NCBI GenBank assembly: GCA_031281155.1
Contig: JAITFT010000015.1
Location: forward strand, 1 to 55,429
DNA: 55,429 bases
Reading direction: 5' to 3'
DNA from: Candidatus Fibrimonadaceae bacterium
GTDB lineage: Bacteria; Fibrobacterota; Fibrobacteria; Fibrobacterales; Fibrobacteraceae
How positions within the stretch are numbered: the stretch's first letter is position 1; every line of letters begins with the position of its first letter. The notes below the pieces were generated by a model that had not been told where the DNA came from, ran no database searches, and was given only the letters and a program-made list of their open reading frames with translations. Below are positions 18,281-30,860 of this stretch, piece after piece. The position numbers were made by a program, and so were the translations under genes.

Positions 18281-18976
18281 ATGAATAACACATTAAAATA
18301 TTGTTTTACGGGTTTATCCATTGTGATACTTTTTTGTGCTTCGCCTGTTTTTGCCGCTTGGGATTATTTCCCTTTGCGAGGCCTTAACAAGGGGCAAGCG
18401 AAAATTGACTATGAAACTGGTTCTAAAACCACGCTTGCGGGAGTTCGCTATGAACCTATAAAAAATCTGGAATTTGCGGTAACGTCTTTAGCTGATTATA
18501 CTTCAGATAATTACGCTATAGGTTTCCGCTGGCAATTGCCTTGGGTAGAAATGTTAAGAATATACTCCGATTTTAGCCCAGCGCATCGTTTATCTGGCAA
18601 TAACGGGCCTATGTCTTTATATTCTGGAATACAATTTTCGCATGATTTTAATTCGCTTTTTGATTCGTCAATAGATCTTGGCTGGGGAAATCAAATTGGA
18701 ATAGCCATAGCAGACGATACTGATTTTAATTGTGGAACGCAATTGGAATTATATATCACAGCAGAAAACGCTTTTTGGCTTAGCGTAGATTTTTCGACTA
18801 AAGGGTTGGCAACTGAAACTAAAGACTATGGGCTTATACCTGCTTTTGGTTATTTTGCTTGTGGAAAAGAATTTTCTGTTTGTGTAGGTACATATTTAAA
18901 GCGTTATAAATATTATAAAAGCGATATAAAAGATTTTGATTGGGTTGCTGGAATAGATGTTTCATTTCTTTTTTAA
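18281..18976 (+). CDS. Exported beta-barrel-like protein (first gene of tubulin/Hsp70-like cluster)
   Basis: 231 aa. Signal peptide with hydrophobic core LSIVILFCASPVFA, cleavage probably after AFA-type VFA. The rest alternates polar and aromatic residues, is rich in Gly/Tyr/Phe and ends DVSFLF with a terminal phenylalanine, as outer-membrane barrels do. AAAGGGGGTG at 18265-18274 supports ATG 18281 over the in-frame GTG at 18272. It is followed after 13 bases by a lipoprotein gene and heads an eight-gene co-directional set. Probable role: outer-membrane component of that system (inferred). No named family recognised. Confidence 0.55.
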   Translation: MNNTLKYCFTGLSIVILFCASPVFAAWDYFPLRGLNKGQAKIDYETGSKTTLAGVRYEPIKNLEFAVTSLADYTSDNYAIGFRWQLPWVEMLRIYSDFSPAHRLSGNNGPMSLYSGIQFSHDFNSLFDSSIDLGWGNQIGIAIADDTDFNCGTQLELYITAENAFWLSVDFSTKGLATETKDYGLIPAFGYFACGKEFSVCVGTYLKRYKYYKSDIKDFDWVAGIDVSFLF

Positions 18977-18989
18977 AGGGTAAAATGTT

Positions 18990-20399
18990 ATGTTAAAATT
19001 TTTGTTTTTATCTATTATGCTTATTTTCAGCCTTTTTGCTTGCAAAGAAAAAGGCTCTGTTGCTACAGAAGAAAGTAAACTAAATCCCATAGAAGAACTG
19101 CCTGAGATTGTTTTAAAGGAGCCTATTATTCCAACAATCAATGTTTATCTTGAAACCACAAACAGAATGGAAGGTTATCTTCGCGGTAAAACTGATTTTA
19201 AGGGTGTTGTTTTAGATTACCTAAGCGCTGTAAATGGGCTGAACTTTCCTATGAACCTTTATTTTCATACAACTAATAGTATTCTGCCCATAAGAGACTT
19301 TACAAATGCTATAAAAAACACTTTTAAAGGGGTAAAAATTCATAACTTTACTTCAGATTACGCTTCAGGCTTAGATTTCATACTTTCTCGGCAAAACAAC
19401 GACTCTGCCGTTTCAATTTTTATTACAGGAGGAATTCTTTCGGGCGAACATCAACATCACTCAGTAAGAGCTAGAATAAACGATTATTTAAAGCAAAACC
19501 CAAATTGGGCGGTAAAAGTATATAAGCTGAGTTCAGAGTTCAGGGGCACGTATTATTATATAGACGATTCTGCAATTCACTTGCCTTGTGAGCTAAGGGC
19601 TTCGCCCGATAGATATTGCCATTGGCCAAAAGGTGGCGGTAAAAGGTATGATATTGGCGAGATAGCATGCAGAAATATGGTGGACACTGTTGAATCATAC
19701 CCAGAGTTAAAAACTGTACGCAGTGCTTCGTGGAGGGTAGATCTGAAGCCTCCTTACAGCGAAAAAGCATGCGTTGGCAACAATATTGAACGGCCTTATT
19801 ATATTTGGGTTATTGGAAATGAAAAAAATATTTCAGAGATAAGCAAAGCAACAAGAATTGCAGAACGCAGCAAAGAAGAACCTAATACCTTCTTTGCTAT
19901 GAATTCAAATATTGCCTTTGAGTACGGCTTTTTAGATCTTCAAAAGCCTAAAAGAGACCCTAAAAACAGTGCTTATGACATTTCTGAAGATAAAAAAACG
20001 TTAAGCAAATGGAAAACTTCCGTTCAGGGAAAAAAGAGAAATTTCGCTATAGGAATGGATTTGAAAGCTTTTATAAATATTAAAGGAAGAGAGTATATTG
20101 AAAGCCCCAATAATTATGTAGTAAAAATTAATGGAAAACCAAGTTCGGAATATGAATTAGAGATTAGTCCTATGGAAGACAATCTCTATACTCATCAATT
20201 TTTAGTCACTTCTAACTCTAGAAAATCTGAATATGGCAATATTGAAATAATTTTAAAAGGTAGCATTCCTGGCTGGGTTGAAGAAATTAATGATGCTAAC
20301 GGAGCTGAGTTTAGAAAAACTTTTGGCATAAAGCCAATATTAGAGTCTTTCGGTACAAATAGAGAACTCTTTACAGCGAAACTTTCTTTAAATAGGTGA
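18990..20399 (+). CDS. Lipoprotein with degenerate vWA-like domain
   Basis: 469 aa. Lipobox LFAC with the lipidated Cys at 18. After a spacer, INVYLETTNRMEGYL (about 50-64) sits where vWA domains have the MIDAS DxSxS strand (compare a typical VYID-SGSM-GY arrangement). Further on, a SDYASGLDFIL helix and SIFITGGILSGEH resemble the later vWA elements (usual LITDGE). Metal-binding residues are therefore largely replaced, suggesting a binding rather than metal-dependent vWA fold. The C-terminal part (350-469) looks Ig-like. Shine-Dalgarno AAAGGG supports the start. It lies between the barrel-like gene and a small membrane protein, nine bases before the latter. The vWA call is by pattern only. 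Confidence 0.5.
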   Translation: MLKFLFLSIMLIFSLFACKEKGSVATEESKLNPIEELPEIVLKEPIIPTINVYLETTNRMEGYLRGKTDFKGVVLDYLSAVNGLNFPMNLYFHTTNSILPIRDFTNAIKNTFKGVKIHNFTSDYASGLDFILSRQNNDSAVSIFITGGILSGEHQHHSVRARINDYLKQNPNWAVKVYKLSSEFRGTYYYIDDSAIHLPCELRASPDRYCHWPKGGGKRYDIGEIACRNMVDTVESYPELKTVRSASWRVDLKPPYSEKACVGNNIERPYYIWVIGNEKNISEISKATRIAERSKEEPNTFFAMNSNIAFEYGFLDLQKPKRDPKNSAYDISEDKKTLSKWKTSVQGKKRNFAIGMDLKAFINIKGREYIESPNNYVVKINGKPSSEYELEISPMEDNLYTHQFLVTSNSRKSEYGNIEIILKGSIPGWVEEINDANGAEFRKTFGIKPILESFGTNRELFTAKLSLNR

Positions 20400-20407
20400 G
20401 GTAATAA

Positions 20408-20836
20408 ATGGAAAAAATCTACAATTTATTTGTTCCAAGATTAATCTGTGAAGATTTGCACAATGAAATGTATCAATTTGTCGAAGGCAGCGAAGGCTGG
20501 GCGTATTATGACATTCTCGGAATAATATTTATTCTGATTTGTTTTGTGTCTGCCTTGTTTTTTTATAAAATTTTTGATAAAGCTAGTGGAAATAGAACGA
20601 CAGCTTGGCTTACTCAGCTAATTATTACTGCTGTTATAAATTTTGCAATTGCAGCCTTATGGATACATGGCCGGAATGGAGATCCGCATAACTGGGATAT
20701 AGAAACATTTTTTATCTTTGGCTTTGGCATAGTAAATTTTACGCTCGCAGCGGTTTATTTCCTTATTTTTTCATTTATATTCAAGAATATTAGCATAAAC
20801 AATATTCACACTCCTTTTAAATTTCCCAACAAGTAA
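20408..20836 (+). CDS. Small inner-membrane protein, three predicted membrane segments
   Basis: 142 aa with hydrophobic segments at about 36-54 (ILGIIFILICFVSALFFY), 68-86 (WLTQLIITAVINFAIAALW) and 101-124 (FFIFGFGIVNFTLAAVYFLIF). No catalytic motif. GAGG precedes the ATG. It begins nine bases after the lipoprotein stop and ends nine bases before the tubulin-like gene, so it may tether cytoplasmic components to the membrane. Family unknown. Confidence 0.6.
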   Translation: MEKIYNLFVPRLICEDLHNEMYQFVEGSEGWAYYDILGIIFILICFVSALFFYKIFDKASGNRTTAWLTQLIITAVINFAIAALWIHGRNGDPHNWDIETFFIFGFGIVNFTLAAVYFLIFSFIFKNISINNIHTPFKFPNK

Positions 20837-20844
20837 GGTGCAAA

Positions 20845-22398
20845 ATGGCAAAGTTATATTTATTCGGAATAGGCGGAACTGGAGCGAGAGTTATTCGTTC
20901 CTTAACAATGTTGCTGGCTGCTGGCGTAAAATGCAATGCCACGGAAATAATACCCGTGCTTATTGACCCAGATAGAGAAAATGGCGACTTACGAAGAACA
21001 GAAAAGCTTTTAAATAAGTATTGCGAAATTCGCAGATACCAAAAAGAAGATAAGCAAACTGGAGAAAAAAAACCAGCGCTAAGTTTTATTAGCAGCAAAG
21101 ACCGCCTCAATGCTTTCTTTAAAATGCCAATATTAGAATCAGATTTTGGCATTAATGAACCCAAGCCTGGTTTTGTGATGCCTATAACCATTGTCAATGG
21201 CGACAAGCAGAGCTTCAAATCGCATATAGATTATGATAATTTGAGTGAAGAAACAAAGGCTCTGGCAAATATGCTATTTTCACAGGCAAATCTAGATTTA
21301 CAACTGGAGTTTGGGTTCAAGGGCAATCCAAATATTGGAAGCATAGTATTGAATCAGTTTGAAAGCAAAGATTCTGTTCTAAAAAAAATATTTACATCCT
21401 TTCAGCCAAATGATAGAATATTTATAGTAAGCTCCATTTTTGGCGGAACTGGTTCTAGTGGCTTTCCTTTGCTACTCAAAACTTTGAGAAAAAATTGGGC
21501 AATGGATAAAAATTCCGAATTGGCATTTAGCGAAAATGTAAGAAATGCTTGTATTGGCGCAGTAACAGTGATGCCATACTTCCAAATATCCGGCGGCGAC
21601 AGCAAAACCATGGTTAATTCCCAAACCTTTATTTCAAAAACCATAGCAGCAATGGATTATTACCATAAAGATATAATAGGCAAAGAAAAAGACCAAGACA
21701 CTTCTTCTTGTTTAAATTATTTATATTCAATTGCCGATTACGATCATACAAAAGAAAATGAAAGAAATGAGGGTGGCGAAAATCAAGTTAACAATGCTCA
21801 TTTTGTAGAGCTTGCCTCTGCGCTTGCTATTTGCCATTTTATGAATAAAAATATTGTGCAAAATGATAGCGAAAAACATATCACAAAAAAAATGCGTTTT
21901 GGAATTGACAGCCAAGGCGAGACCGGAGAAATAATTTATAGTAATTTAGCTAGAGATACACTTGAAGCTTTAAGAAAGCCTTTAACTCAATTATGGCTAT
22001 TCTCTAGGTATATCCACGAAAAAGGCGGTTCCGAATTTAATGGCACGCCAGCAGGCAGTTTGTTTGAAAGCAGCTTTTTCTCAGAAGACCATGGCTTTTA
22101 CAAAATAATTAAGGAATTTCTCAAGGAATTTGATAATTATTTATATGAGATGGAGCAAACAAGAAGTTTTGTTCCATATACTAGCCATAAAGATGAAGAT
22201 ATATTTCTGCGTATTCGTGGCGTGGGCGAAAAGAAGAAGAGATTTTTCGCTGCAAATGAAACTGGGTGGGATTTGCTTATAACGCAATTAAATAAACAAA
22301 GGGAAGTTTTGAAAGGACAATACCCAGAAGAAAGATTTTTGGAAATATTTTATAGAGGAACGCTTAATTCTATGAAAGAAAGGTTAACTGATTGGTAA
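20845..22398 (+). CDS. Tubulin/FtsZ-superfamily GTPase-like protein
   Basis: 517 aa, cytoplasmic. The N-terminus has a nucleotide-binding Rossmann start FGIGGTGARVIRSL (residues 6-19), an acidic DPDRENGDL strand end near 47, and near residues 198-206 FGGTGSSGFP, equivalent to the tubulin signature GGGTGSG that binds GTP phosphates. This resembles divergent bacterial tubulin-like families (Tubulin_2 or the FtsZl group reported as linked to membrane remodelling), not canonical FtsZ. The C-terminal half is unfamiliar. AAGGTG supports the ATG. It is followed after 12 bases by the Hsp70/actin-like gene, so two cytomotive-type folds are adjacent in one operon. Confidence 0.75.
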   Translation: MAKLYLFGIGGTGARVIRSLTMLLAAGVKCNATEIIPVLIDPDRENGDLRRTEKLLNKYCEIRRYQKEDKQTGEKKPALSFISSKDRLNAFFKMPILESDFGINEPKPGFVMPITIVNGDKQSFKSHIDYDNLSEETKALANMLFSQANLDLQLEFGFKGNPNIGSIVLNQFESKDSVLKKIFTSFQPNDRIFIVSSIFGGTGSSGFPLLLKTLRKNWAMDKNSELAFSENVRNACIGAVTVMPYFQISGGDSKTMVNSQTFISKTIAAMDYYHKDIIGKEKDQDTSSCLNYLYSIADYDHTKENERNEGGENQVNNAHFVELASALAICHFMNKNIVQNDSEKHITKKMRFGIDSQGETGEIIYSNLARDTLEALRKPLTQLWLFSRYIHEKGGSEFNGTPAGSLFESSFFSEDHGFYKIIKEFLKEFDNYLYEMEQTRSFVPYTSHKDEDIFLRIRGVGEKKKRFFAANETGWDLLITQLNKQREVLKGQYPEERFLEIFYRGTLNSMKERLTDW

Positions 22399-22410
22399 AA
22401 AGGAGAGTAT

Positions 22411-25400
22411 ATGGCCATTGTTAAAAGTTTGTACGATAAAACTGCCAATGTAAGTCATTGGGATGAAAACGACAAAGATTGGACATTTAATGCAGGCGGC
22501 GCTATTGAAGCTGTAAATGACCCTAGTGGCGCCAAAGCAAGTTTGCAAATCACATCTATTCCATCTCCATGGGCTAGGATCGATTTGGTAAAAACCGCTT
22601 TTAGCAAAGTGAATAAAGATGGGCACCAAATAAAAGAAGATGGTACTGGAAATATTTACGATAAAATAGTTTCTGATACCCTTGACGTAGGCCAGCTTTT
22701 TTTCAGCTATTCCACTATAAGCGACAAAGTTGAAATAATTGAATGGGATAAGGAAACAGAACTCGAAAATCTTATAAAAAACTCAAATCACGCACACCGA
22801 AAGTTGGGCAATACTTTAAAAATGTATCTGGAAGGGAAGAAAGACCAGTATAAACACGACCGTTTTAAAAAGCTGTATATGCTGAGGTACAAAAATGCGC
22901 CTCGGGATAGTTCTAGCATTATAGGCATGACTTCTCCGGTATCCTTATTTTGCAGTTCAGCGAATAACCAGTCTTTTATAGACGATATATTTTTTGGGCA
23001 AGATAAACCGTTTGACTCAAGCTTTACTCCTTTACGCAAAAGAGACCCTGAATATATAAAATGGCTTTATGCTTTAAGCAAAACAGAGGGTTTCTCGGTA
23101 GATTTCCCAGAAATATATGAGTATATAGAAGAAGAAACTGGCAGTTTCAGCGTAGGCTCCACTCTATACAATGAGATCCAGGAATTTGACGATAAAAAAG
23201 CTACTTACGAATCTAAATATCCGTCTAAGCTGAAAAAAAATGATAACGCTCAAGATAGCGTAACTATTTTAGATAAATATGTATTAAGACAAAGAGATAC
23301 TACAAGCGGTCTTGGCGAAAGCGATTTTGAAATAGTTAACAGCAAATTTCCTTTTGAAGCGGAAGGCTTGCCAAAACCGCTAATTTTGCCCGATGTTGCG
23401 GGCAATGATTATGCCAACTGGAAATATACTTACGACAAATGGGGTGATAAAAGCAAGGCACCCGAAATGCCCGATGCTAAATGGCAAGATAGAACTTTGC
23501 CTTTCCAGCACATAAAACATCCATACCTTACGTTAAGCGATTTTTTGGAAGATGATATTATTCGTCCTAGCAAATTATCGGATACATTGTGGAACGATAA
23601 AAATTTCTTTTCTGGAAATTATGAACAATCGCAAAAGGACTCAGGCTATCTTTTGCCGCTCAAAGACTTGTTTTTTAAATTCTTTAGTATAAACGATTTG
23701 AAAAACGGATTTAATGGCACAAAATTTATTGAAATGAAAAAAGACGGTGATAATGTTCGCGTAACTTTGCGGGTTCCTGTTCGTAGGGGATTTGTAGAAT
23801 TTATTAGAACATACGAAGGAAAACCTGCTGTTGCAAACGATTCCAAAAAACATTTTTATGTTATAAACGAAGACCAGTTTGATTTCTTTCTTTTCCCGAA
23901 TATTCGTTTTGAAGATGGAATAAAAGGCCATTACAGAGCGGCAATAGCACAAGATGTAGATATGGCGGAAGGAAATAGAGCTTATAGTTTGGAATTCTGT
24001 TCTGGCAATGGCTACCCTCTTGATAATAATGAGCCTTCAGTTCGAGATGACAAAACCAACGATGAAAAGATACTTACCTGGAGATATCATCCGAGTAAAA
24101 AAGATGAAGAATTTGAATATATAAGAATATATCGCAATACCAGTAAAAAAAGGTATTCTGGCGTAATAATTCCTATTTTCAAAGAACAATCTAATACCGA
24201 CAGGAAAAGATTCATTTTTGCCGTAGACTTTGGAACCACCAACACTCATATTCAATATTCGGTAGATGGTGGATTAACCCAGCCTTTTAACATTACAAAA
24301 GAAGATAAACAGCTATCAATGCTGTTTTACAGAAAAGATAAAACCGGCACAAAAGAGGATGCATTCTTTGAAGACGCAATAAAGAATAAGATTTTTTTTG
24401 ATTTTATCCCAACCATTATTGATGGAGATTATTATTTTCCGTTGCGCACTATTTTGACTGTTGCAGATAATTGTGATTATGAAGCTGCCCAACCCTATGT
24501 TTTTACCGATGCAAATATGGCATTTAGGTATGGAAAGGAACGAAAGCCGCCTTATGATAAAATAGAATCTGATTTAAAATGGCTTGGCAATTCCACCAAG
24601 AACGCTAATGAGCATCTTGTTAGAAGTTTTATTGAATCCATTTTGTTTTTAATTCGCAATAAGGTTATTCTAAATGAAGGGCGATTAAGCGAAACCAGAA
24701 TTGTTTGGTTTTACCCTGTTAGCATGGCAGCTCCCAGAGTCGAGGCTTTTTCTAGAATATGGGAAGATTCTTTCAAAAAATATTTTGGACAGCACAATCC
24801 AATAGATAATTTGATTAAGATGACAGAATCTGTCGCTCCTTATTATAATTATGGAAGAATAGCTGATGTGGATATTATGGCTACTGTTGATATTGGCGGC
24901 GGTACAACTGATATTGTGCTGGCAGAGAATATTGCAAGCAACGGCAAGATAAATCACATAGCCTCTTTCAGATTTGCGGCAAATTCTCTGTTCTCAGATG
25001 GCTTTAATGAACCGCAAACGCCAGATGAGAAAAGCGGCATAGTTAGAAAATACGCTGCTGAAATAGAAAACGTTTTGAAATCCGATCAATTAGGCAGCAA
25101 ACACCAGCATCTTAAAGATACTTTTGCCGAAATTAATGCCGGTAAAAGCACCAGCAATTTTGCGGCGTTTCTATTTTCTTTAATTGAGTTGGAAGGAATT
25201 CCTGCAAACATACAAGGATCTCTTGACTATGAGAAAATGCTGTTTAAAGATAACAAAATGAAAGTATTGTTTGTTATTTTCTATTCTGCGATAGTTTATC
25301 ATTTAGCGCAGCTTATGAAAGCAGCAGGCATGAAATCTCCGACTCATATTGCTTTTAGCGGAAATGGCTCTAAAACAATACGTATTTTGAGCAACAAAGA

Positions 25401-25971
25401 CAAGCTCGGCAAATTTGCCAGCAAAATTTTTGAAAAGGTATATGGTGAAGAAATAAAGAGCGAGATTGTGATTCTGCAAAATGATGAGCCAAAAAAAGTA
25501 ACTTGCGATGGCGGAATTACATATATAAAAAACAAGCTCAACGCTGAAGTACGTAAAGAGGAAGACAGAATAGAAAAACTCAAAATTGTTTTGAAAAAAT
25601 CTGGAAACGGAAAAGAAAAGGGCGAGTTTTTTAGTGATGAAAAATATGGTGATATCAGGAGTTGCGAGGCATATAAAAAACTTGTTCTAGAAGATGTGGA
25701 ACGATATTTTAAGATTATTTTTGACGATTTGGGAGAGTTAGTGTGCAATGATTTATTAGACGCTACAGCCCATAAAACCTTTGAAGCTGCTAAAAACGTA
25801 TGTTTGGGCGATGCAGATAAGCTTCGCATTTGGCTGAGCAGAGGGATTGGAAAAAAACTAGATAATGGCGAAACTACTGATACAAGCAGAATTGAAGAGC
25901 CTTGGTTTTTCTATCCTATAATTGGGGTTTTGAATAAATTAGCCAATAGTGTTTGCGATGGTAAAATTTAA
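22411..25971 (+). CDS. Giant protein with C-terminal Hsp70/actin-type ATPase domain
   Basis: 1186 aa. Residues 1-590 are an unrecognised N-terminal region. The C-terminal half carries the actin-superfamily motifs in order: phosphate-1 AVDFGTTNTHI near 604, phosphate-2 VDIGGGTTDIV near 826, and adenosine motif FSGNGSKT near 982, after which a lysine/glutamate-rich helical stretch follows. Large proteins of this layout recall SrfB-like Hsp70 relatives, but similarity by eye is limited to the ATPase motifs. AAGGAG precedes the ATG. The 3' end overlaps the next gene's start by 14 bases. Together with the adjacent tubulin-like protein it probably forms the cytoplasmic energised part of the cluster (inference). 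Confidence 0.75.
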   Translation: MAIVKSLYDKTANVSHWDENDKDWTFNAGGAIEAVNDPSGAKASLQITSIPSPWARIDLVKTAFSKVNKDGHQIKEDGTGNIYDKIVSDTLDVGQLFFSYSTISDKVEIIEWDKETELENLIKNSNHAHRKLGNTLKMYLEGKKDQYKHDRFKKLYMLRYKNAPRDSSSIIGMTSPVSLFCSSANNQSFIDDIFFGQDKPFDSSFTPLRKRDPEYIKWLYALSKTEGFSVDFPEIYEYIEEETGSFSVGSTLYNEIQEFDDKKATYESKYPSKLKKNDNAQDSVTILDKYVLRQRDTTSGLGESDFEIVNSKFPFEAEGLPKPLILPDVAGNDYANWKYTYDKWGDKSKAPEMPDAKWQDRTLPFQHIKHPYLTLSDFLEDDIIRPSKLSDTLWNDKNFFSGNYEQSQKDSGYLLPLKDLFFKFFSINDLKNGFNGTKFIEMKKDGDNVRVTLRVPVRRGFVEFIRTYEGKPAVANDSKKHFYVINEDQFDFFLFPNIRFEDGIKGHYRAAIAQDVDMAEGNRAYSLEFCSGNGYPLDNNEPSVRDDKTNDEKILTWRYHPSKKDEEFEYIRIYRNTSKKRYSGVIIPIFKEQSNTDRKRFIFAVDFGTTNTHIQYSVDGGLTQPFNITKEDKQLSMLFYRKDKTGTKEDAFFEDAIKNKIFFDFIPTIIDGDYYFPLRTILTVADNCDYEAAQPYVFTDANMAFRYGKERKPPYDKIESDLKWLGNSTKNANEHLVRSFIESILFLIRNKVILNEGRLSETRIVWFYPVSMAAPRVEAFSRIWEDSFKKYFGQHNPIDNLIKMTESVAPYYNYGRIADVDIMATVDIGGGTTDIVLAENIASNGKINHIASFRFAANSLFSDGFNEPQTPDEKSGIVRKYAAEIENVLKSDQLGSKHQHLKDTFAEINAGKSTSNFAAFLFSLIELEGIPANIQGSLDYEKMLFKDNKMKVLFVIFYSAIVYHLAQLMKAAGMKSPTHIAFSGNGSKTIRILSNKDKLGKFASKIFEKVYGEEIKSEIVILQNDEPKKVTCDGGITYIKNKLNAEVRKEEDRIEKLKIVLKKSGNGKEKGEFFSDEKYGDIRSCEAYKKLVLEDVERYFKIIFDDLGELVCNDLLDATAHKTFEAAKNVCLGDADKLRIWLSRGIGKKLDNGETTDTSRIEEPWFFYPIIGVLNKLANSVCDGKI

Positions 25972-27277
25972 CTTATCCATAATAATTTTCTTAGCTTTTT
26001 TGCTATCGCCACTGTGCGTTCCAGAGGCTTATGCGCAGAGAGGGCGGGCGGATCGGCATGGTTCAAACGATCAAACGCCTGGATCTGCGCCCGAACAGCC
26101 TACACTTGCGCCGCCGCCAGCGTCCGTCTCTACGCCGCCAGCGGTGCAACCACCACCGCCACAACCACCGCCGCCGCCATCACCACCGGCAACCGTCCCT
26201 ACATCCGAACCACCACCGCCTGCGCCACAACCACCACCGCCGCCATCACCACCGGCAACCGTCCCTACATCCGAACCACCACCGCCTGCGCCACAACCAC
26301 CACCGCCGCCGCCAGTAGCACAACCCACACCACCACCAGCTCCCAAGTCAGCGGCAAAGGCAGGTGCAAAAAAAACTGCAGAAAAGAAGGCAACAGAAGA
26401 AAACCCAACTTCCTTCATTGCTAAAGAAGAAGAAAAACCAACTCCCAAAGCGCAAGATTCCACTCCTGAAGCTAGTGAAGGGCAGAAATCGCCAAAATTT
26501 TTTGGCCCTTTATTAGATAAAAAAAATAGAAGATATATTGTTTTTGCCATAACTTTAATTTTACTTTTGTTAATATTTATCTTTAGGCATTTATTTAAAA
26601 AGAAAGACGAGGAACAAGTTCCATATGTGAATTTAGAAGAGATAGCTGCAAAAGCGGCAGAAGCGGCTTTTGCAAAAGTGACAGCAGAGAAAAAGACAAA
26701 AGAAGATGCCGAAGCAAGAGAAAAAGAAAGAGCACGAATGGCGGAAGAACGAAAAGCAAAAGAAGCGGAAGAACGAAAAGTCAGAGAAAGAACAGAAGCT
26801 GAGCAAAGAGCAAAAGAAGCAGAAGAACGAAAAGCCAGAGAAAGAGCAGAAGCTGAGCAAAAAGCAAAAGAAGCGGAAGAGCAAAGAGTCAGAGAAAAAG
26901 CAGAAGCTGAACAAAAAGCGAAAGAAGAAGCAAGATTAGCTGTTGAGGCGAAAATAAAAGCCGATATTGAGGCTAGAGCAAAAGGAAAATACCTTAAAGC
27001 TATAAATAATAACTATTTTGGAAATGTTTCAGAAGATCCAAAAGGCGCATTCTATAAAATGTTCTACGAAGATGCAAATACGGCTTCTGCGCAATTTGAA
27101 TTTTGCGGAAATTCAGAAAGAGCATTAAGAAATCCAGATGCTACTATTTTCAAATTCTGCGATTTTGAAGGAAATTTAAATAACGCAGAAACAATAATAA
27201 ATGTAAAACCAGGAATTCTTATAAACAGAGATGGGTATTGGACAGTTTCTCAAAAAGCTCAAATAAAATTGGTATGA
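25958..27277 (+). CDS. Proline-rich single-span membrane protein with coiled coil and shared C-terminal domain
   Basis: 439 aa. Signal peptide ending AYAQRG, Pro-rich segment (about 40-145) containing a 22-residue unit repeated in tandem, membrane span near 187-208 (VFAITLILLLLIFIF), a long Ala/Glu/Lys/Arg coiled coil (about 218-345), then a roughly 95-residue C-terminal domain with KGAFYKMF and SAQFEFCGN. That domain recurs in the next gene. ATG 25958 overlaps the preceding gene by 14 bases. The in-frame GTG at 25949 is a less likely start. Topology suggests a proline-rich arm outside the cytoplasm and the coiled coil plus end domain in the cytoplasm, possibly contacting the Hsp70/tubulin-like pair (inference). 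Ends ATGA with the next gene. Confidence 0.65.
   Translation: MVKFNLSIIIFLAFLLSPLCVPEAYAQRGRADRHGSNDQTPGSAPEQPTLAPPPASVSTPPAVQPPPPQPPPPPSPPATVPTSEPPPPAPQPPPPPSPPATVPTSEPPPPAPQPPPPPPVAQPTPPPAPKSAAKAGAKKTAEKKATEENPTSFIAKEEEKPTPKAQDSTPEASEGQKSPKFFGPLLDKKNRRYIVFAITLILLLLIFIFRHLFKKKDEEQVPYVNLEEIAAKAAEAAFAKVTAEKKTKEDAEAREKERARMAEERKAKEAEERKVRERTEAEQRAKEAEERKARERAEAEQKAKEAEEQRVREKAEAEQKAKEEARLAVEAKIKADIEARAKGKYLKAINNNYFGNVSEDPKGAFYKMFYEDANTASAQFEFCGNSERALRNPDATIFKFCDFEGNLNNAETIINVKPGILINRDGYWTVSQKAQIKLV
25979..26043 (+). repeat. 65-bp direct repeat, copy 1 (signal peptide region)
   Basis: Identical base for base to 27289-27353. It encodes the hydrophobic core and cleavage region of the signal peptide in both proline-rich paralogues. 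Confidence 0.97.
26171..26302 (+). repeat. Two tandem copies of a 66-bp unit
   Basis: Copies 26171-26236 and 26237-26302 are identical and encode a 22-residue proline-rich unit. Copy number is likely to vary between strains. Confidence 0.95.
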
Positions 27278-28146
27278 TAAAACTGTCAATAATAATTTTC
27301 TTAGCTTTTTTGCTATCGCCACTGTGCGTTCCAGAGGCTTATGCGCAGAGAGGAGTGCGGGAGCGTTCTAGTTTAAACGATCAAACGCCCGAACAACCTA
27401 CACTTGCGCCACCGCCACAACCACCGCCACCGCCACCGCCACCGCCACAACCACCGCCGCCGCCTGCGCCGAAACCGCTACCAGTAGCCGTCCATACGCC
27501 TGAACCTACGCCGTCCGAACTCACAGAAAAAGCGAAAGAATACATCAGCGCAAATACTCCTTATTATATCTACTCAATGCGATCTTGGCAAAATACAGTA
27601 ACGGCCCTCCTTATTCTGATTTTGTTAGCATTTGTTTCTGTTGCATTATTTTTATTTAAAAAGGAAAAAGAAAAAAAATATACTGAAAATTTGAAGGAAG
27701 CACAACTCAGAAAAGAGCTAAACAACCAACAGCGAAAAACGAGAGAATTGGAAAAAATACTTTTAGATATGCAAAAAGAAAAGAAACAAAGCTCACCGCA
27801 ACAAGCAACGAAGGAGTCTGAACAGCAATCATCGCTACTGCCAAAGGAATACAAATATCTTAAATCTATAAGCGAAAATTATTTTAGAGATATTTCAGAA
27901 GAACCTAAAGGTACATTTTACAGAATGTTCAATGAAGACACAAGTGCTGCTTCTGCGCAATTTGAATTTTGCGGAAACACGGAAAGGGCATTGAGCAACC
28001 CGTATGCAAATATTTCCGAGTTCTGCGAAATTGAAGGTGATTTAAGCACCGCAAAAGGAATAACAAGCGTTGAGCCAGGAATATTGATTAAAAAAAATGG
28101 ATATTGGACGGTTGCTCAAAAAGCGAAAATAAAGTTAGAAAGTTAA
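27274..28146 (+). CDS. Paralogue: proline-rich single-span membrane protein with shared C-terminal domain
   Basis: 290 aa, shorter relative of the preceding protein with the same order: signal peptide identical over its core, Pro-rich segment, membrane span near 110-130 (ALLILILLAFVSVALFLF), short coiled coil, and a C-terminal domain (about 195-290) with KGTFYRMF and SAQFEFCGN. ATG 27274 overlaps the previous stop as ATGA. The much longer upstream in-frame extension to 27238 lies within the previous gene. Tandem duplication is clear, and the 65-bp exact identity at the signal peptide shows either recent duplication or gene conversion, since the rest has diverged. Function unknown. Confidence 0.65.
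   Translation: MIKLSIIIFLAFLLSPLCVPEAYAQRGVRERSSLNDQTPEQPTLAPPPQPPPPPPPPPQPPPPPAPKPLPVAVHTPEPTPSELTEKAKEYISANTPYYIYSMRSWQNTVTALLILILLAFVSVALFLFKKEKEKKYTENLKEAQLRKELNNQQRKTRELEKILLDMQKEKKQSSPQQATKESEQQSSLLPKEYKYLKSISENYFRDISEEPKGTFYRMFNEDTSAASAQFEFCGNTERALSNPYANISEFCEIEGDLSTAKGITSVEPGILIKKNGYWTVAQKAKIKLES
27289..27353 (+). repeat. 65-bp direct repeat, copy 2 (signal peptide region)
   Basis: Exact copy of 25979-26043. Confidence 0.97.
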
Positions 28147-28161
28147 TTTGAGTTAATAAAA

Positions 28162-29895
28162 ATGCAAAAAAATACTTTATTTGTAGTTATATCGTTAATT
28201 GTATTAGCTATAATTATTTATGCTTTAATCGGTGGCAATAATTCCAACCGAGGTTATAATAATAAACCAAGAACCCCACATAATCAATCAAAAGATTTCA
28301 CTTTTGAAAGCAAGCAGCTACCTATAGAAGATGACACGATAATAGAAAATAGTGAGGAGATTCAAATGGAAATTTTCGCAGAACAAATAGTAATTTTCTT
28401 TTCCAGTGCAATATCTATCGAAAAGGCCAATAAAAAAATAAACCAGATGGGTGGCAAAGTAATAACGCAAATTCCGGATATGCGCTATTTTTTAGTTGAA
28501 GTTCCAAAAGGCAAAGAAGCAGAATTTATATTAAAAGCAGAACGCGATAGATATGTTAATCATGTATCTCAAAATATGCAAAGTTATCCTATGTTTATCA
28601 TTGATGATTTTACTGAATCCATGCCCAATAGTAAAATTACACACGGGCACGCAGTTTATAATGCTGCTAAAAAATGCTGCCCAGAATGCACTTTTAAACC
28701 AGATATTTTTGATGTAGGTCCAAAATTTCTTACGAAAGATATAGTACAAGGCATTCATACCGCTTTTAATCAAGACAAAAATAAACCAGTAGTGATAAAT
28801 ATGTCATTTGGAATGCCTCTTTGTTCTTTGAAAGTTAATATCCGCATACGAAGCTGTAAAACGAATAGAGAAGGAGACATTATAAAAGCAAAATGGACTG
28901 AAGCTGATTCCGATGCGCAAGAGTATTGGATTCGCAGTTATAAAAGATTTATTGTAACTAATGTCCTTGCGCCATTGCAAGCATATAAAGAGAACGGCAG
29001 GGATTTTGCCATAACAGTAGCTGCCGGCAACAACGGCTCTCCTGTGCTAGGCGATAGAATATTAGATCCTCTGAGAGAGTCTTTGAAAGATGGGTTAAGA
29101 AACGCTAAATTAAGAAAGGATAAAATAGGAGAGAAAAAATTTGAGACTTATCTAGAGATTCTTAATAAACATGTATTATTTGTTAGTGCATACGAAAAAA
29201 ATAAAGATTATAGCGATAGGCCAGCCAAATATCATGACTTGGTAACAGCAGCAGATATTTCTAATAAAGCTGTTTTTCCCTATCCTGGTAGTTCCTTCGC
29301 AGCACCTGATGCAGGATATTGCCATATACGTCGTGCTATGGAGAAAAATGAAATTTCTGAATCAGAAGCTGTGCAAGCGATTAAAAACGCAACAAAGGAA
29401 AATGCCGGGAGAAACGGCGATTTATATACGCCTGGTATTTTAGAAACTTCTATGTTAGATCGAGAAGCCCGGCTCATTGCCATAGATAAAGAGCCAAAGG
29501 AAGAACTAGATCAAATGGATCAATTAGCAAAAAAAGATACTAATCGTCACCCAAGTTACGATGAGCAAAAAAAACTGAGCAAAGCAGCAAGAAAAAGTAA
29601 TCGTCGCCCAGGTTACGATGAACAAAATGAGCTGAAAGGACAAAGAGCAGAGAAAAGCAAGCAACATAGAGAAGAACGGGACAGAAAAACAGTAGAGGCG
29701 ATGAGAAGGAAGCAAAAAAAACAAGAACTGGCTGCTGCTAGAAGACAGCAGCGAGAACAAAAAAAGGCAGAAGCAAATAGAAGAAAACAGGAAGAAAGAG
29801 AAGCAGCAAAACGGCAAAAAGACCTTGAAATGGCAGGAATGGGATGCTTTCCGTTTATAATTGCAATGGTGTTTTTAATTTTCTTGTTTTCATAA
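28162..29895 (+). CDS. Membrane-anchored subtilase-family serine protease
   Basis: 577 aa. N-terminal membrane span (residues 6-24), an I9-inhibitor-like propeptide domain (about 65-125), then a subtilase fold: candidate Asp 147/148 in IIDDF, His 161 in ITHGHAV, oxyanion Asn in AAGNNGSP, and Ser 378 in PGSSFAAP (the GTSxAAP motif). A long Lys/Arg/Glu coiled coil (about 490-560) follows and a second hydrophobic segment, FPFIIAMVFLIFLF, ends the protein. The aspartate motif is non-canonical, so activity is likely but not certain. It closes the eight-gene cluster, 16 bases after the previous stop. Probable role: regulated proteolysis at the membrane within the system. Confidence 0.75.
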   Translation: MQKNTLFVVISLIVLAIIIYALIGGNNSNRGYNNKPRTPHNQSKDFTFESKQLPIEDDTIIENSEEIQMEIFAEQIVIFFSSAISIEKANKKINQMGGKVITQIPDMRYFLVEVPKGKEAEFILKAERDRYVNHVSQNMQSYPMFIIDDFTESMPNSKITHGHAVYNAAKKCCPECTFKPDIFDVGPKFLTKDIVQGIHTAFNQDKNKPVVINMSFGMPLCSLKVNIRIRSCKTNREGDIIKAKWTEADSDAQEYWIRSYKRFIVTNVLAPLQAYKENGRDFAITVAAGNNGSPVLGDRILDPLRESLKDGLRNAKLRKDKIGEKKFETYLEILNKHVLFVSAYEKNKDYSDRPAKYHDLVTAADISNKAVFPYPGSSFAAPDAGYCHIRRAMEKNEISESEAVQAIKNATKENAGRNGDLYTPGILETSMLDREARLIAIDKEPKEELDQMDQLAKKDTNRHPSYDEQKKLSKAARKSNRRPGYDEQNELKGQRAEKSKQHREERDRKTVEAMRRKQKKQELAAARRQQREQKKAEANRRKQEEREAAKRQKDLEMAGMGCFPFIIAMVFLIFLFS

Positions 29896-29919: not shown

Positions 29920-30375
29920 CTAGCCAGCTAGCACTTTTCCTTCGCAATAGCAAGCAAATATATAGCTTTGATTTTCATAATACAAACTGCTATTGAAATT
30001 CTCTATTTTTCTGGAAATCGGAGAGTTATATGCTTTTATAAGCGCTTGCATTAAACCTATCTGCTCATGTTCGGCTATATCAATAATCAGCCTTTTATAT
30101 ACTTTGCCAATATCCCAATGCGAAGGAACGGCATATTTGCAAACTATTTCAAAATTCTCACTTGCTATGGAAAATTCAGTTATCAGCTCATCGCTTACTT
30201 TATCGATATTTTCCGAATGATAAACATCTGCTAAATTGAAAATTTTGCTTATTTTTTTTTCGCCAATCGCATTCACAACAGAGTCTCTGTGAGCTTTGAT
30301 TTTGCGAGAAATATATTCTATTAAACTGCACACAAAAAACAGATTGTTATGTTCTTTTATTTCCCTGCCTATCAT
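29920..30375 (-). CDS. DUF3791-like protein, putative partner of the ART-like toxin
   Basis: 151 aa. The first 70 residues (FFVCSLIEYISRKIK, then DVYHSENIDKVSDELI) match my memory of DUF3791 proteins that occur next to DUF3990. The second half contains VPSHWDIGKVYKRLI, also seen in such loci. ATG overlaps the stop of the DUF3990 gene as ATGA, so the two are coupled. By position it is the candidate antitoxin, though in related loci similar proteins can also flank the toxin. It is convergent with the subtilase gene. Near the shared 3' ends the sequence GCTAGC-CA-GCTAGC (29918-29931) is palindromic. Confidence 0.55.
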   Translation of the reverse strand: MIGREIKEHNNLFFVCSLIEYISRKIKAHRDSVVNAIGEKKISKIFNLADVYHSENIDKVSDELITEFSIASENFEIVCKYAVPSHWDIGKVYKRLIIDIAEHEQIGLMQALIKAYNSPISRKIENFNSSLYYENQSYIFACYCEGKVLAG

Positions 30376-30824
30376 ACAAGCTCCTCACTTTGTCTAAACT
30401 TTAAGTATTTCAGAGCATCTTCATTGCAAAAATTTATTTGATGCGTTGGGCGTTTAAATTTTGCCAGAACCCAAAATTGCTCCCTTGTTATTGCTCCGTT
30501 TATGTAATCACTTATGTAATTATATACCTGATCATTTGCCATTGGCCCATCAACAACATCATAATCGTGGCTTTTCCCGTTTCTGCAAAAAATTATGAAA
30601 TCCAGCCATTCTTCAGTCATTTCTGGAAAATTTCTTGCTTGCAAAGAAGCATTTTCTTTGTATTCATATACATTGAGAATCGGAGCTTCGTAACGGCTCG
30701 CCCAGCGTATCGCTTGCTGCTTTAAAACTGTGCAATAAAAACCCTTGCCGAAATCTTTAGCGTATTTTCCTATTAGTATTTGCGGAATTTCAATTTCTGT
30801 ATAACTGCCGTGATAGAGGATCAT
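30372..30824 (-). CDS. DUF3990 protein, ADP-ribosyltransferase-like putative toxin
   Basis: 150 aa. Starts ILYHGSYTEI and contains DFGKGFYCTVLKQQAIRWA, the conserved pattern of DUF3990, a family assigned to the ADP-ribosyltransferase fold. The target is unknown. An in-frame ATG three codons upstream (30833) overlaps the -10 TATCTT, so ATG 30824 is chosen. The -10 (30832-30837) ends seven bases before it, implying a leaderless mRNA. First gene of a two-gene unit with the DUF3791-like protein. Together they look like a toxin-antitoxin pair. Confidence 0.65.
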   Translation of the reverse strand: MILYHGSYTEIEIPQILIGKYAKDFGKGFYCTVLKQQAIRWASRYEAPILNVYEYKENASLQARNFPEMTEEWLDFIIFCRNGKSHDYDVVDGPMANDQVYNYISDYINGAITREQFWVLAKFKRPTHQINFCNEDALKYLKFRQSEELV

Positions 30825-30831
30825 GTGCAAC

Positions 30832-30860
30832 AAGATAGAAAATTAAAATTTTTCTATATT
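30832..30860. promoter_or_regulatory. Divergent overlapping promoters with -10 boxes 17 bases apart
   Basis: Minus-strand TATCTT (30832-30837) serves the DUF3990 gene, and plus-strand TATATT (30855-30860) serves the gene at 30869. Each -10 ends 7-8 bases before its ATG. The whole intergenic region is 44 bases, so the two promoters must interfere with each other. Confidence 0.7.

Follow-up and report, generated by a model that had tools for sequence, protein, structure and literature searches.

Operons described around FtsZl1 join a divergent FtsZ/tubulin gene to a gene for a von Willebrand factor A (vWA) domain protein and to genes for membrane proteins, sometimes with OmpA domains, and were predicted to be a membrane-remodelling kind of system (Makarova & Koonin 2010, PMC2875224). 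Zorya combines ZorA, which resembles MotA and extends far into the cytoplasm, with ZorB, which has an essential aspartate and a peptidoglycan-binding-like domain, and is accompanied by nuclease effectors and nearby restriction genes. SrfABC loci encode a giant actin-fold protein (SrfB, PF07520) beside another nucleoside triphosphatase (NTPase) and a large third protein. The locus analysed here, which shares parts with all three, occupies positions 18281-29895 of a 55,429-nucleotide (nt) stretch, the window, of contig JAITFT010000015.1 from Candidatus Fibrimonadaceae bacterium. Its genes, g1 to g8, include those for a vWA-like lipoprotein (g2), a three-span membrane protein (g3), a tubulin-like GTPase (g4), a giant actin-fold ATPase (g5), two adaptor paralogues (g6 and g7) and a subtilase (g8). 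Judged from its sequence and that of its relatives, the locus may encode a horizontally acquired trans-envelope NTPase machine, the most likely job of which, with a probability of about 0.5, would be defence against mobile elements, phages included.

The gene set is a variant of the loosely known vWA/FtsZl1 kind, and not categorically new, because vWA/FtsZl1 operons with OmpA-domain proteins have been described and, of the 18 tubulin members scanned, 15 give weak matches to Tubulin_2 (PF13809; E ≤ 0.01, best 1.4e-6), even though g4 itself lies below the curated cut-off (21.9 against 27 bits). As outlined in the FtsZl1 account, the C-terminal half of FtsZl1 is mostly helical, like that of g4, but it is separated from the GTPase domain by an extended coiled coil, which g4, with 517 amino acids (aa), does not have. 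The partner of FtsZl1 is given there as a P-loop GTPase or a protein kinase, whereas here it is a giant actin-fold ATPase. A ZorAB-type motor with a protease/nuclease slot, present among the relatives of the window locus, sets them apart from the FtsZl1 operons as described, supplementary operon lists aside.

The relatives share the above features of Zorya, but the core here consists of vWA-like, three-span, tubulin, actin and adaptor proteins, the effectors look exported, neither the window nor 13 of the 62 loci have the motor, and ZorC, D, E, F and G were not seen. Membership of the window set in Zorya was rejected because ZorA and ZorB are missing from the window genome and no window protein matches ZorCD, ZorE or ZorFG. 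SrfB was rejected as the identity of g5, which reaches only 13 bits where the cut-off is 27.1 (Pfam E 0.025) and resembles the SrfB profile around its second phosphate motif (P 9e-5), not along its full length. The true SrfB loci inspected contain none of the other core families. The same genus and phylum do have true SrfABC-like loci (L114, L115 and L116), in which SrfB is accompanied by a P-loop protein and one more large protein. Literature searches, with most subscription papers and preprints outside their scope, found no paper joining these parts, in line with the original prediction, made from the window sequence, for which the set had matched no described system.

The core genes and their conservation

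The tubulin was first detected in 6 of 61 relatives. A species-representative collection holds at least 550 tubulin places, the best 80 of which, mostly from Bacteroidota, were kept; the synteny counts rest on 62 loci with full flanks, also mostly from Bacteroidota. The vWA-like lipoprotein, three-span protein, tubulin and giant protein are encoded in all 62 loci, and their genes are contiguous and in the same order in 59. The single-span adaptor is present in 61 loci, and additional, less similar copies show the same core. By gene content and order, this is a conserved multi-gene system, predicted to act as one machine, and five genes are taken as its core because loci without a motor occur. 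It represents a widespread operon that lacks a described function. The original prediction had combined all eight genes into one machine, and the core agrees with it, but g1 does not: tblastn found no g1 homologue in the relatives' loci that were checked. The lack of conservation of g1 is what speaks for a chance or local cluster without joint function, a reading that is extremely improbable, as it is refuted by the retention of the core in 62 of 62 loci across Bacteroidota and Fibrobacterota-like genomes. The g1 gene is probably co-transcribed with the others; on this comparison it is no conserved component and is best excluded from the system, since it has no counterpart in relatives' loci. 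The g1 product has a signal peptide and is possibly the beta-barrel that the original prediction read in it.

The g4 protein contains the tubulin signature, with loop T1 (GIGGTG) at residue 8, loop T4 (FGGTGSSG) at residue 199, and a T7-like NNAHFVE motif. Among its relatives, T1 is conserved as GG.G in 85 of 86 and T4 as FGGTG[AS][SA]G in 86 of 86. The Pfam scores of g4 (Tubulin 3.7e-5, Tubulin_2 1.2e-4) are both under the curated cut-offs. The AlphaFold model, calculated with the relatives as the alignment, has a predicted local distance difference test score (pLDDT) of 83 and a predicted template modelling score (pTM) of 0.90, and all 50 Foldseek matches listed are tubulin, FtsZ or CetZ structures (probability 0.80-1.00, best E 7e-4). 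The whole-chain template modelling scores of these matches are low (0.2-0.37), probably because of the divergent C-terminal half of g4, where the model shows a number of helices, each about 20 residues long, beyond the GTPase part, and no long coiled coil. The loops and the model support a tubulin-type GTPase fold and the placement of g4 in the tubulin/FtsZ superfamily.

The C-terminal part of g5 carries the three actin motifs: DFGTTN at residue 606 (phosphate-1), DIGGGTTD at 827 (phosphate-2), and FSGNGS at 982 (adenosine). Phosphate-1 is found in 78 and phosphate-2 in 72 of 79 g5 relatives. The AlphaFold model, again with the relatives as the alignment, has a pLDDT of 84 and a pTM of 0.78. 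Its top Foldseek matches are MreB and the nucleotide-binding domain of Hsp70 (E 2e-9, probability 1.00), among 356 matches at E ≤ 1e-3. Pfam scores are weak (SrfB 0.025, FtsA 0.2), and the motifs together with the modelled fold support an actin/Hsp70-fold ATPase.

The family profile of g2 aligns in register with VWA_2 domains (hhalign P 2.8e-4); Pfam VWA is not among the families listed for it, nor is there a PDB profile match. A metal-ion-dependent adhesion site-like motif of the ExSxS type is present in 61 of 81 g2 relatives and is degenerate in the window copy (ETTNRM). The adaptors g6 and g7 have near-identical signal peptides, followed by a proline-rich segment, one membrane span, a charged coiled-coil-like stretch and alignable C-terminal domains of about 95 aa. 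From this topology, we infer that the C-terminal domain is cytoplasmic, on the same side as the two NTPases. It is fused to a MotA-like protein in a same-genus genome (L012), and to ankyrin/TPR repeats and a membrane span in L008 (3890-6493) and L009 (3075-4289), a pattern that would look like that expected of a docking module. The g7 protein was rejected as a ZorB (PADLOC 4e-4): the true motB family matches no window gene, and the weak score most likely stems from the membrane span and coiled coil. The folds of g4 and g5, the degeneracy of the vWA-like motif of g2, and the spans of g3 and of the two proline-rich paralogues had all been put forward in the original prediction and hold here; conserved co-occurrence of the genes, proposed there as a check, is seen for the core. 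The original prediction had also drawn the machine from the cytoplasm to the outer membrane; parts lie on either side of the inner membrane, and only lipoprotein signals point to the outer one. The relatives' ZorA/ZorB motor, exported nucleases and neighbouring defence genes go beyond it.

The motor and effector slot of the relatives

The core is followed by a MotA-like gene in 49 of 62 loci and by a MotB-like gene in 44. The MotA-like proteins match the ZorA2 models of PADLOC and the ZorA of structure 8vvn. All of the MotB-like proteins compared with PADLOC match ZorB (41 of 41). In the PDB, they match 8vvn ZorB best (9e-16), followed by 8qyd ZorB and then by flagellar MotB (2e-5). The ion-carrying aspartate motif is intact in 53 of 53 MotB-like proteins, and the corresponding aspartate of ZorB is required for Zorya defence (PMC11890865). 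By these profile matches, the motor of the relatives is of the ZorA/ZorB type. It is optional, as far as gene content tells, and is also lacking in L008, L057, L060, L088 and the Spirosoma copies.

The 120 downstream genes examined include those for trypsin (19), retropepsin (16), SNase (9), Exo_endo_phos (6), Endonuclease_NS (5) and caspase (2) families, and many of these proteases and nucleases have lipoprotein or signal peptides. In a same-genus locus (L012, 11215-13607), the motor genes are followed by those of a SIR2_2-like protein, a TPR protein and a membrane-anchored Endonuclease_NS. The window version has the membrane-anchored subtilase g8 in the effector slot, and two tandem adaptor paralogues. 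The g8 protein contains a Fervidolysin N-pro domain above the Pfam cut-off (3.2e-6), the subtilase motifs DDF (148-149), HG (161-162), AAGNN (287) and GSSFAAP (376), and two spans, which agrees with the subtilase that had been named at this position. The Lys/Arg-rich stretch that precedes its second span suggests that the protease domain is cytoplasmic, unlike the lipoprotein proteases of the relatives. Proteolysis had been expected as an output or control of the machine, and trypsin, retropepsin or, in the window, subtilase genes do occupy the same slot.

Distribution, neighbourhood and proposed function

The tubulin is present in 6 of 168 genomes of the window's phylum and in 10 of 301 genomes of a Flavobacteriaceae sample. 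The copies from the phylum do not form one clade in the tree, and the window copy lies apart from three same-genus copies, on a long branch that leaves its exact place unsure. The flanks differ in each same-genus copy, and the block is species-specific, with a GC content of 37% versus 40-42%. No part of window positions 18.0-32.8 kb adjoins EF-G or pgi in the sampled same-genus genomes; EF-G and pgi are unlinked in the sampled relatives, so the empty-site comparison gave no clean insertion boundary. The locus appears to have been acquired horizontally. Four matches were found in viral contigs, two of them apparently the same locus. The distant version in one viral contig (L120, 5026-16951) encodes a 507-aa lipoprotein-like protein, a membrane protein, a 600-aa tubulin and a 1504-aa giant protein, and adjoins recombinase-like and ParB-like genes. 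In other phyla, the system may be carried by mobile elements.

Compared with PADLOC, the flanks of the locus from 10 Bacteroidota genomes gave matches to 192 families (E ≤ 1e-20), with type I restriction-modification methyltransferase and specificity subunits in the lead, against 9 families, all house-keeping-like, for control regions of equal size in these genomes; the 192 include many overlapping models of the same few genes, with at most four proteins matching any one model. Defence seed searches gave matches in 7 of the 20 flanking regions and in none of the 20 controls, some of the seeds having been taken from those loci. The Flavobacteriaceae copies lie near restriction-modification genes. 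Behind the effector genes of four of these loci (L162, L163, L165 and L166), HsdM-like, DUF262-like and PLD-like genes were recognised by eye. In Flavobacterium akiainvivens (L053, 18136-21423), a Cas9 gene lies directly behind the operon. The neighbourhood points more to conflict or defence than to membrane remodelling.

Several results weigh against a defence function. The window operon has no motor, and none was found in the remainder of its genome, which is 92% complete; the 25 top PADLOC families for the 120 downstream genes do not include ZorC-G. A narrower defence gene set matched only 4 of 68 non-Spirosoma loci, with seeds partly from the tested regions, and the enrichment of restriction genes is based on 10 genomes. 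The tubulin is present in 36 of 36 Spirosoma genomes searched, where it is core; phage records gave no match, and 1 of 72,556 plasmid records did, a 1.77-Mb Prevotella replicon. Because this universality among Spirosoma species and the near-absence from plasmids and phages favour a physiological role, defence is not given a higher probability. The NTPases, with the optional ion motor, would then deform or organise the envelope, in shaping, vesicle formation or surface assembly, and the protease would process substrates. Cytomotive filaments are typically built from actin and tubulin folds, which fits such a role, as does the membrane-remodelling function proposed for operons with tubulin-like, vWA and OmpA-domain genes in the account cited above (PMC2875224). 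We consider this envelope role less likely than defence, in view of the rare and patchy occurrence outside Spirosoma, the incongruence of the tree with the species within the phylum, the different flanks of same-genus copies, the swapping of protease and nuclease genes, and the restriction-gene neighbours. The force or membrane-remodelling role put forward originally is one hypothesis among those weighed here. The signal and lipoprotein peptides of many downstream nucleases and proteases also fit an antibacterial or scavenging device, in which the machine would expose or release them against neighbours or environmental polymers; such a device is improbable, as no immunity-gene pattern was recognised and no secretion apparatus or delivery module was seen in the loci, and the ZorB-like peptidoglycan-binding motor points to the envelope of the cell itself. 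In Spirosoma (G169 and G474-G508), no motor was seen in the loci, and the tubulins fall into two score classes, which suggests two subfamilies.

For the defence function, we start from what sequence and models establish (the gene set, its conservation, the two folds, the Zor-like motor of the relatives, the variable slot, and restriction genes near some copies) and infer the sensing, event order, filament formation, target and immunity as the outcome. The vWA-like lipoprotein and the three-span protein would detect a disturbance that arises at the inner membrane or outside it. On the adaptor, the two NTPases would form a switch, which would turn on an effector, a protease and in some cases a nuclease, on or across the inner membrane; in the window, this would be the membrane-anchored subtilase. 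In most relatives, ion flow through the ZorA/ZorB-type motor would join the switch, and the effectors would be exported proteases and nucleases. A bolder version, which we hold only tentatively, is that of a new immune class in which a cytoskeletal switch of tubulin GTPase and actin ATPase, mostly with a Zorya-type motor, would release exported proteases and nucleases upon envelope breach. If immune, this would be, as far as our searches show, the first defence system to draw on both cytoskeletal superfamilies, and Zor-type motors would gain a wider use. If it acts on the envelope instead, a function could be assigned to a divergent family of bacterial tubulins that has been proposed as a membrane remodeller since 2010. 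Culturable carriers for either reading are available in Spirosoma, Flavobacterium, Sphingobacterium and Parabacteroides.

Layout of the window locus

The eight open reading frames (ORFs) lie on the + strand at the coordinates first given for them, packed tightly or overlapping as originally described. The gaps between successive genes from g1 to g5 are 13, 8, 8 and 12 nt. The g5 and g6 genes share a 23-nt overlap (25949/25971), g6 and g7 share a 4-nt ATGA overlap (g6 stop 27275-27277, g7 ATG 27274), and 15 nt separate g7 from g8. The Pfam scan of the window proteins gave no match for g1 and g2, and few, mostly weak matches for g4, g5 and g8.

Table 1. Features of the window locus and its downstream neighbours
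Feature	Position	Strand	Basis
g1, exported protein, possibly beta-barrel	18281..18976	+	ORF with signal-like N-terminus; no Pfam match
g2, lipoprotein (FAC lipobox) with degenerate vWA-like domain	18990..20399	+	family profile in 62/62 loci; hhalign to VWA_2
g3, small three-span membrane protein	20408..20836	+	three hydrophobic spans; family in 62/62 loci
g4, divergent tubulin/FtsZ-superfamily GTPase, 517 aa	20845..22398	+	motifs, Pfam, AlphaFold, Foldseek
g5, 1186 aa, N-terminal region of ~590 aa of unknown fold and actin/Hsp70-fold ATPase	22411..25971	+	motifs, AlphaFold, Foldseek; family in 62/62 loci
g6, adaptor	25949..27277	+	topology from sequence; family in 61/62 loci
g7, g6 paralogue in tandem, sharing its C-terminal domain	27274..28146	+	near-identical signal peptide; profile match 4e-27
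g8, subtilase-like protease with pro-domain and a membrane span at each end; effector slot	28162..29895	+	Pfam and motifs
Flanking convergent pair, DUF3990 protein (30372-30833) and small unannotated partner	29920..30833	-	neighbour, not core; PF13151 E 1.9e-49

The DUF3990 gene and its small overlapping partner sit directly behind g8, and the two look like a toxin-antitoxin-type pair.

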